Made by a program: the position numbers and the translations under genes. From IMG/VR virus record IMGVR_UViG_3300025000_000368, positions 1 through 26,966 of that record: a DNA stretch of 26,966 nt; one strand, given 5' to 3'. Shown here one piece after another: positions 146-5,685 of this stretch (the stretch's first letter is position 1; every line of letters starts with the position of its first letter). A model generated the notes under the pieces. It saw nothing but the letters and a program-made list of their open reading frames with translations, was not told the origin of the DNA and searched no databases. The DNA comes from a virus.

Positions 146-205
146 AAAAATCCCCCTGGAAAATGAGGTCGCGCAGGTCGGTTACCTACTCATAATCCAG
201 GGGGA
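146..205 (-). terminator. Intrinsic terminator or attenuator hairpin in the leader of the left-edge gene
   Basis: A perfect 10-bp GC-rich stem pairs 196-205 with 151-160. It continues inward as 189-193 with 163-167 and 184-187 with 175-178. Read on the minus strand the last arm is followed at once by five T residues (150-146). It lies between the stop of the gene at 319 and the ATG at 126, so it would either end the upstream transcript or act as an attenuator for the downstream gene. Confidence 0.6.
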
Positions 206-237
206 TCAACAATTCAAACCGAATAAGAAGCGCGACC
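167..237 (-). promoter_or_regulatory. Alternative long-range pairing over the leader hairpin (antiterminator or pseudoknot)
   Basis: Two nested complementary segments span the terminator-like hairpin: 230-237 pairs with 167-174 (8 bp) and 217-222 pairs with 178-183 (6 bp). These pairings use the upper part of the terminator hairpin, while its basal 10-bp stem opens inside them and closes outside. The RNA could therefore switch between two folds or form an H-type pseudoknot. The complementarity is directly visible; a regulatory role is inferred. Confidence 0.4.
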
Positions 238-3945: not shown

Positions 3946-4461
3946 TTAATTCTGAAAAGTTGATCTGATTTGATTAAACGCCCGCTCGATCCCCCGGCCC
4001 TTGAATCCCATATCCCGCATGGTCCGTTCAATGGTCTTCCGGATATTGCCGGCAGAATTTCCCGCTGTGATATTGGTCATTTCCTTTGGTGACTCGAAAA
4101 TGATCCGCAATACCTGTTTTGCCTCGGCCCCAAGGGAAGAGAGGGATTCAAGAAATTCATATCGCTGGTGACCACTCGGCCTATGATCCGCTACATCAAC
4201 TTCCTCATTCGTTGCCGGGAACTTCTTCCCCTGGGTTTTCAAATACTGAACCATGGCATTCCGGCAGGTGGTATGAATTAAGGTGGATAATTCGCAACCA
4301 TGATCTGGATTGAATTTCTTGATTGCCCTCAGCATTGCAATAGTTCCTTCCGACTTGAGGTCATCAAATTCATGACCAGTTGTTTTGGCAAAGGACCAGG
4401 CGAGTTTGTTTACTTGGGAAATATGTTTTTCAACGAGCTGGTTGGTGTGATTGGGGGTCAT
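3946..4461 (-). CDS. Sigma-70 region 2-like transcription factor
   Basis: A 171-residue protein whose first 75 residues match sigma factor region 2: a helical start, then DDLKSEGTIAMLRAIKKF (33-50), NPDHGCELSTLI (51-62) and a following helix RNAMVQYLK. Region 2 binds the core polymerase clamp and melts the -10 element. The C-terminal half is helical and basic and may contain a divergent region 4, but no clear helix-turn-helix is readable. AGGAGA eight bases before the ATG supports the start. Its place in the early operon suggests a switch to later phage promoters; alternatively it is a sigma-derived DNA-binding protein without promoter activity. Confidence 0.7.
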   Translation of the reverse strand: MTPNHTNQLVEKHISQVNKLAWSFAKTTGHEFDDLKSEGTIAMLRAIKKFNPDHGCELSTLIHTTCRNAMVQYLKTQGKKFPATNEEVDVADHRPSGHQRYEFLESLSSLGAEAKQVLRIIFESPKEMTNITAGNSAGNIRKTIERTMRDMGFKGRGIERAFNQIRSTFQN

Positions 4462-4590: not shown

Positions 4591-4714
4591 ATCCCACCGC
4601 CTTGTTTTCGAGTTTCTGTTTGACTCCCATAATTTCCGGGGCATAGGTGATGAAGGAAATTATTATAACAAGAATGAATCCAACCATAAACCAAAAACCT
4701 GCTCGATTACTCAT
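4571..4714 (-). CDS. Micro-membrane protein (47 aa)
   Basis: A 47-residue protein with one membrane helix starting FWFMVGFILVIIISFITY and a polar C-terminal tail rich in Lys, Glu and Asn. A strong GAGGAGG lies six bases before the ATG, and the start overlaps the previous gene's stop. Together with the following 39-residue protein it forms a pair of overlapping single-span proteins. Such pairs in phages can be spanins, holins or membrane-anchored host-takeover factors. No lysis enzyme is nearby, so lysis is not the favoured reading here. Confidence 0.65.
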   Translation of the reverse strand: MSNRAGFWFMVGFILVIIISFITYAPEIMGVKQKLENKAVGYGQLNY

Positions 4715-4919
4715 GATTTTCCTCCTCAATAATATCGGATTGAGCCGCTAAATTTACGGCCCGTTGATAAGTAACTGATTTAAACAAATGGGCTAGATCG
4801 GCTTGGATTTTCTGCAGCCGCTCCCAATGCTCAACTAGGTCTGTGGCCGGAAGCCCACGCAGAATGGCTAGTTCAAGTTCGATTGCCGTTAAGTTCCAGG
4901 CCGGTGGATATTTCTTCAT
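4707..4919 (-). CDS. Small helical hypothetical protein (70 aa)
   Basis: I do not recognise this protein. It is almost entirely helical, with segments LTAIELELAILRGLP and VEHWERLQKIQADLAHLF. The start at 4919 is preferred over an in-frame ATG at 5018, because it overlaps the stop of the glycosylase gene as ATGA and the longer version would lie wholly inside that gene. Its C-terminus (IIEEENHE) overlaps the start of the following micro-membrane protein. Confidence 0.65.
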   Translation of the reverse strand: MKKYPPAWNLTAIELELAILRGLPATDLVEHWERLQKIQADLAHLFKSVTYQRAVNLAAQSDIIEEENHE

Positions 4920-5344
4920 AACCTTTCCCTTGCATATCTTGGTTTCTTGGGGAACTTCTCCGCAATCCGTTTTCTGTTCAGGGTCATTGCTTCCGGGGTC
5001 GGCTCGTAATCGTTCCAAAGAATATTATCAATCGTGGGCCAGACCATAAATTCACCAACAGGCCACATACTCCGCCTCGGCATTCCCCGCTGGGCAAGCT
5101 CATCCCTGATTGCTTCATACCGGCGATACAGGAATTTTAACTTATTGAAGAAGAATTTCATATGCCCTTTGCCGCCATCCGGATTATCTTCAGTCCTGAC
5201 GGTGTATTGTTTGGGGATCTGCTCCAAATCAATTACATACTTCCCGGCAACAATACCATTGGGGATTCTGGTTAGCTCGCGCCATTCAGCTATAAGCTGT
5301 TGGTCGCAAAGCTCGGCGGGTGGGACTATATTGATTCTGGTCAT
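4916..5344 (-). CDS. denV-like: Pyrimidine dimer DNA glycosylase, T4 endonuclease V (DenV) type
   Basis: A 142-residue protein that begins MTRIN, continues with AELCDQQLIAEWRELTR and later has HMKFFFNKLKFLYRRYE. This is the T4 endonuclease V pattern. In T4 the N-terminal amine of Thr2 and Glu23 perform the glycosylase and AP-lyase steps; Thr2, Arg3, Arg22, Glu23 and Arg26 are all present here at matching positions. The length equals the T4 protein. It should cut the glycosidic bond at UV-made cyclobutane dimers and start repair of phage or host DNA. AAGGA seven bases before ATG supports the start, which must be exact because the mature N-terminus is catalytic. T4 His16 is Gln here. Confidence 0.85.
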   Translation of the reverse strand: MTRINIVPPAELCDQQLIAEWRELTRIPNGIVAGKYVIDLEQIPKQYTVRTEDNPDGGKGHMKFFFNKLKFLYRRYEAIRDELAQRGMPRRSMWPVGEFMVWPTIDNILWNDYEPTPEAMTLNRKRIAEKFPKKPRYARERL

Positions 5345-5596: not shown

Positions 5597-5659
5597 GACA
5601 TTCTCCTTTGATTTGGTTAACCGGCTATCTCATCAGACCCAGGAGCCGAACCCTGGATG

Positions 5660-5675
5660 ACCGGCCGGAGCCGGT
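5660..5675 (-). other. Short GC-rich hairpin in an 89-base intergenic gap
   Basis: A perfect 6-bp stem (5660-5665 with 5670-5675) closes a four-base loop in the gap between two small genes. There is no T-tract after it on the minus strand, so it is not a standard terminator. It may be an mRNA stability or processing element; this is a guess from structure and place. Confidence 0.3.
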
Positions 5676-5685
5676 TTCGAAGTGG

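Follow-up and report, generated by a model that had tools for sequence, protein, structure and literature searches.

The minus strand of the analysed stretch of viral DNA (the window, which is a linear source record of 26,966 bases) carries at 243-146 an element that is probably a structured, cis-acting, attenuator-type 5′ leader RNA of a phage replication operon, with folding, termination and regulation predicted from its sequence. Two interlocked pairings join its hairpins, compensatory changes preserve them among relatives, the members of one subclass share a loop E-like core, and the leaders stand before replication genes. In the window, the element and its flanks are laid out as follows.

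279-251, minus strand: weak sigma70-like promoter match (TTTAAA, 17 nt, TATATT; 9/12 matches)
243-224, minus strand: 5′ hairpin P0, UAAGAAG[GUCGCG]CUUCUUA, with a 7-bp stem (243-237/230-224) and a hexanucleotide loop (236-231)
236-231, minus strand: 5′ side of contact 1 (kissing), which is the P0 loop; partner 173-168
222-217, minus strand: 5′ side of contact 2, UCGGUU, the strand directly after P0; partner 183-178
207-196/160-149, minus strand: S2, terminator-like stem, followed by the U run
207-196, minus strand: 5′ arm of S2, GAUCCCCCUGGA
193-189/167-163, minus strand: inner helix of S2, AUGAG/CUCAU
187-175, minus strand: apical hairpin P3, AGGU[AACCG]ACCU, with stem 187-184/178-175
183-178, minus strand: 3′ side of contact 2, including the apical loop of the terminator hairpin
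174-167, minus strand: segment GCGCGACC, between P3 and the 3′ strand of the S2 inner helix
173-168, minus strand: 3′ side of contact 1, within the loop region of the terminator hairpin
160-149, minus strand: 3′ arm of S2, UCCAGGGGGAUU
150-146, minus strand: U run, UUUUU, 3′ of S2
138-135, minus strand: GGAG, Shine-Dalgarno-like, found by reading
126-1, minus strand: truncated replication initiator gene with ATG at 126, assigned by identity to the L006 protein

Read 5′ to 3′, positions 243-146 of the minus strand thus run through P0, UCGGUU, the S2 5′ arm, AUGAG, P3, GCGCGACC, CUCAU, the S2 3′ arm and the U run. The first-pass annotation had described a stem at 205-196/160-151 followed by five U residues, as well as pairings 237-230/174-167 and 222-217/183-178 interlocked with it. 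All of these are present in that strand order, and the stem extends to 207-196/160-149. It had also proposed an H-type pseudoknot; the two interlocked helices of such a fold are there, but the simple H-type topology has to be refined to a two-hairpin kissing-loop arrangement, because the 5′ strand sits in a hairpin loop of its own, that of P0. The P3 loop (183-179) is the partner of 221-217. Base 167 is used both in the inner-stem pair 189-167 and in the outermost kissing pair, so the named pairs are never all complete simultaneously.

The best interlocked helix pair of the window scored 50.5, whereas 200 dinucleotide shuffles had a mean of 28.4 and a maximum of 36.4, none of them equalling it; in six relatives, too, the interlock exceeded what shuffling produced. 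Ordinary folding of the element gave z = -4.5. The stable S2 stem together with 150-146 has the form of an intrinsic terminator or attenuator; S2 is missing from the output of a simple terminator scan because the loop limit of that scan is 8 nt. The proposed position before a truncated replication gene is borne out by the initiator open reading frame (ORF), which shares 81% identity with the L006 protein over 37 residues, the latter matching PHROG replication initiation families. Sigma70-like matches near the window leader occur at chance level, and the transcription start predicted at about 244 would tentatively place P0 at the 5′ end of the RNA. Directly upstream of P0, at about 240-320 of the minus strand, lies an AT-rich imperfect palindrome (UUAAUAGGA ... 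UCCUAUUAA), which could be a promoter, an unwinding element or a hairpin.

Contigs with the same locus were found by a primase scan, and five leaders including that of the window were compared. The window, L003 and L006 have one leader version in common. The leaders of L005 and L002 differ clearly in their letters and are followed by other rep genes, while the DNA upstream of them is nearly the same; this indicates that leader and rep were exchanged together. Contact 1 is 100% paired in all five relatives; both partners have changed at two pairs of its 6-bp core, and at one more when the contact is taken as 7 bp. Three versions of contact 2 occur, each completely paired without a mispair (UCGGUU/AACCGA, CCGAAAA/UUUUCGG and CCAGAA/UUCUGG). 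Three pairs of the P0 stem are changed on both sides, its outer pairs being absent in L005 and L002. S2 also carries double changes, and its inner helix reads GUGAG/CUCAC in L003 versus AUGAG/CUCAU in the window. In total, 11 pairs carry changes in both partners, compared with 3.6 after shuffling; not one of 500 shuffles reached this number, and the signal peaks clearly at zero slide. The covariation across homologs on which the first-pass annotation had staked its proposal was therefore found, with compensatory changes in both stem sets. L008 was rejected as a member: its topology is apparent by eye, but it failed the shuffle test (174 of 200).

Distant loci were fetched with a primase alignment and then with an initiator alignment. 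Scans for interlocked helices with a U run revealed an excess over shuffles that is concentrated before replication genes. Among these leaders, a subclass shares a core in the order S2, AGUA, a P3 helix of 3-6 bp with a loop of 6-10 nt, GAA, S2. The pair AGUA/GAA is the signature of the bulged-G (loop E, sarcin-ricin) internal loop, and the core is predicted from its letters to fold as such. When 1.09 Mb were scanned for AGUA/GAA hairpins followed by a U run, without regard to any upstream partner, 23 matches (15 distinct sequences listed) were obtained versus none in one shuffle, and an upstream complement was present for all 14 distinct loops of these hairpins. The upstream partner strand is usually the loop of a hairpin P0, as in UUUAUUGGU[GUACCCG]ACCAGUAAA and UUGUAU[AGCCUGG]AUACAA; L029, L160, L009 and L134 have a weak P0 stem or none, and the U runs of L045, L133 and L160 are weak even though members had been selected for U richness.

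The loop E subclass comprises 18 distinct leaders, in which the mean score of a loop with its own partner is 17.1 versus 9.7 when permuted (0 of 20,000 permutations as high), and 17 of the 18 members rank their own P3 loop first among the 18 loops. Covariation within the hairpins is strong, in stems that had been part of the selection, and the energies of the second hairpin are uniform at -18 to -22 kcal/mol. Furthermore, viral contigs were searched with a DNA pattern that contains the core only and makes no use of rep or primase, which gave at least 83 matches. Among the matches listed, all 11 with stem and U run have an upstream P0 partner (scores 14-19), two with stem but without U run score 9.5 and 10.5 and lack a P0 partner, and the remainder have a mean partner score of 6.7. 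These 11 include repeats and known members, the new distinct ones being L201, L209, L237 and L244.

Upstream of 10 of 22 members there is a Bacteroidota-type -7 box (1.7 expected), which would put P0 close to the 5′ end of the RNA. The window group has GGAG and a sigma70-like box instead of the Bacteroidota-type -7 box, and by these sequence signals its host probably differs from that of the Bacteroidota-type members. In L042, L105, L134, L022 and L097, short ORFs start with an ATG in or beside the P0 arm; they are absent from the window group and may possibly encode leader peptides.

To go beyond the loop E letters, about 1.1 Mb were scanned by architecture only, that is, for a 5′ hairpin whose loop is complementary to the loop of a U-run hairpin. 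At a score of at least 68, 31 matches were found versus 1.5 in shuffles. The window element, whose P0 loop is complementary to the terminator-hairpin loop before a replication gene, had the top score; most other top matches are leaders already named, and nearly all of the best lie directly before replication genes. The earlier view of a phage-specific regulator has to be given up, as the architecture also precedes replication genes in many unrelated phages. The window has AGUA without its GAA partner, and a search of the window with model R1 gave no match. Its tie to the loop E subclass lies in architecture and position rather than in sequence, and the two may share a common origin.

Most members are followed by an initiator-like gene (HTH_36, PHROG replication initiation). 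Exceptions are HNH or GIY-YIG genes (L022, L075/L077) and an unassigned gene (L209), with rep following in L022; in L006 the leader precedes an inserted gene and rep comes after. Such extra genes (HNH, GIY-YIG, nuclease-like) occupy L006 8409-8984, L022 6953-7342, L075 4232-5005 and L077 1606-2643, between leader and rep or directly 3′ of the leader, as if inserted. One leader copy was found per record in 11 of 11 records, all chosen for holding one. The distance from S2 and the U run to the initiator start codon is 10-25 nt in most members.

Taken together, we propose a putative model for the leader. The RNA would start just upstream of P0, which would fold first; its loop would then capture the apical region of the emerging second hairpin, a region that in the window may also be captured by the strand after P0. 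The resulting kissing complex would sit atop a hairpin whose U run precedes the initiator start codon. This hairpin is most likely an attenuator, at which part of the transcripts would be terminated and the replication initiator thereby limited, and the kissing contact would set or switch the terminated fraction. The regulating signal might be a protein, a metabolite, a ribosome or an antisense RNA. More tentatively, these leaders might constitute a new and widespread class of phage regulatory RNA, in which a 5′ hairpin kisses a terminator-hairpin loop, often with a loop E motif, and which would act as a sensor or timer gating the replication operon and be exchanged together with diverse initiators.

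Several other explanations have to be weighed against this attenuator. An unregulated structural leader, in which a strong terminator or 5′-stabilising structure only fixes a basal initiator level or protects the 5′ end, would fit the uniform energies of the second hairpin, the position of P0 near the predicted 5′ end in several members and the failure to find a shared regulator. It is nevertheless unlikely, as the invariant AGUA/GAA core and the maintained tertiary contact exceed the needs of a plain terminator. Terminated leaders might instead accumulate with genome number and control copy number in trans, their loops kissing other transcripts to lower the initiator, with loop divergence preventing interference between related phages. 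The loop pairs do vary from one related phage to the next, in step with the rep module, and kissing RNAs control plasmid rep leaders (PMC10724649). However, both partners lie within one RNA, so cis pairing should win, and the stems vary as much as the loops, so drift accounts for the divergence; control in trans is thus quite unlikely.

Control at the level of translation, by a hairpin beside the start codon or by leader-peptide attenuation with a ribosome on a short ORF over P0, is distinctly unlikely as well. The nearness of the start codon to S2 in most members and the ATG and short ORFs at the P0 arm in several of them speak for it, but the window group has no such start codon, its initiator's Shine-Dalgarno lies outside the stem, and the CAUG/CAUG pattern is accounted for by the P0 stem. 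Very unlikely indeed is an element acting as DNA, such as an operator, origin hairpins or protein-binding inverted repeats, which the adjoining replication gene and the AT-rich palindrome might suggest: the U run and the loop E letters are strand-specific and therefore favour a function as RNA, G-U pairs are tolerated, and loop-to-loop complementarity has no simple role in DNA. Autoregulation by one Rep protein family is also unlikely as the sole explanation, because initiators of different families have the same leader. A resemblance in strand order to HDV-like ribozymes was considered and dismissed by reading, as P1.1 and the catalytic C have no room between the 3′ kissing strand and S2.

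In plasmids, it is classic for a leader RNA to control the first replication gene, whereas in lytic-type phages such control is, to our knowledge, hardly described. In the IncI-alpha, IncB and IncL-M plasmids, translation is activated by a pseudoknot and blocked by an antisense RNA, and their leaders are not known to contain a terminator hairpin or a loop E core; pT181 relies on stems that exclude each other, together with an antisense RNA. We know of no 5′ hairpin loop kissing a terminator hairpin in either the RepZ or the pT181 systems. These plasmid rep leaders are the closest in logic, namely the RepZ pseudoknot and its antisense RNA in IncI plasmids (Asano and Mizobuchi 1998) and the countertranscript-driven rep attenuator of pT181 (Novick 1989), both as cited in PMC10724649. 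As in IncI-alpha, IncB and IncL-M, the loop of a hairpin in the initiator leader pairs with a distal complement, with kissing and control of the initiator level, and as in pT181 a terminator-like hairpin lies in the leader of the replication initiator gene (PMC10724649). In the phage leader, unlike in IncI, the pairing partner belongs to the loop region of a terminator-like hairpin, and an antisense RNA is not known; unlike in pT181, the main strands of the two pairings are not shared. Minimum free energy (MFE) folds gave no shared-strand alternative of the pT181 preemptor/terminator type, and no mutually exclusive antiterminator stem is evident, in contrast to classical attenuators.

Loop-loop contacts are also found in the lysine, purine and guanidine-II riboswitches, of which the lysine riboswitch has in addition a loop E internal loop and control of termination. 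The phage leader, however, lacks a ligand-binding junction and conserved binding letters beyond AGUA/GAA, and it has no Rfam match: the covariance models gave no family at the element at gathering score and nothing meaningful at relaxed thresholds, in line with the first-pass failure to recognise a riboswitch class. The antisense systems of phage P4 (CI RNA) and phage P1 (c4) likewise involve the leader of a replication or immunity operon, with complementary segments and termination, but their RNAs are processed and act in trans; the present leader differs in having one cis pair at its 5′ end. No description of such a leader was found in the open-access literature. A search of GenBank phages by primase gave no relatives, and the relatives found by rep carry this gene within operons; six such records gave no convincing model match. 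A model search of 395 Bacteroidota genomes under strict filters, a weak test with no positive control, also gave none. These leaders represent one RNA architecture, which compensatory changes have preserved in phages whose initiators are unrelated. They offer a testable model of tertiary loop-loop contacts tuning intrinsic termination, and a searchable signature for the heads of replication operons in uncultured phages.

Other structured RNAs and genes were observed along the way. Before a replication gene of L010, at about 4633-4745, three mutually crossing complementary pairs occur in the order 1 2 3 1′ 2′ 3′. The phage contig L009, which carries a leader, also has a Twister-sister ribozyme at 1530-1600 (49 bits). 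On the minus strand, the window encodes a YspA/SLOG-like gene (1466-1816), a sigma-70 region 2 gene (3946-4461) and a pyrimidine dimer glycosylase gene (4916-5344), as well as a Type II hammerhead ribozyme (5619-5682; Rfam RF02276, 44.5 bits), which is also present in the relatives L002 (1552-1615) and L005 (1680-1743).
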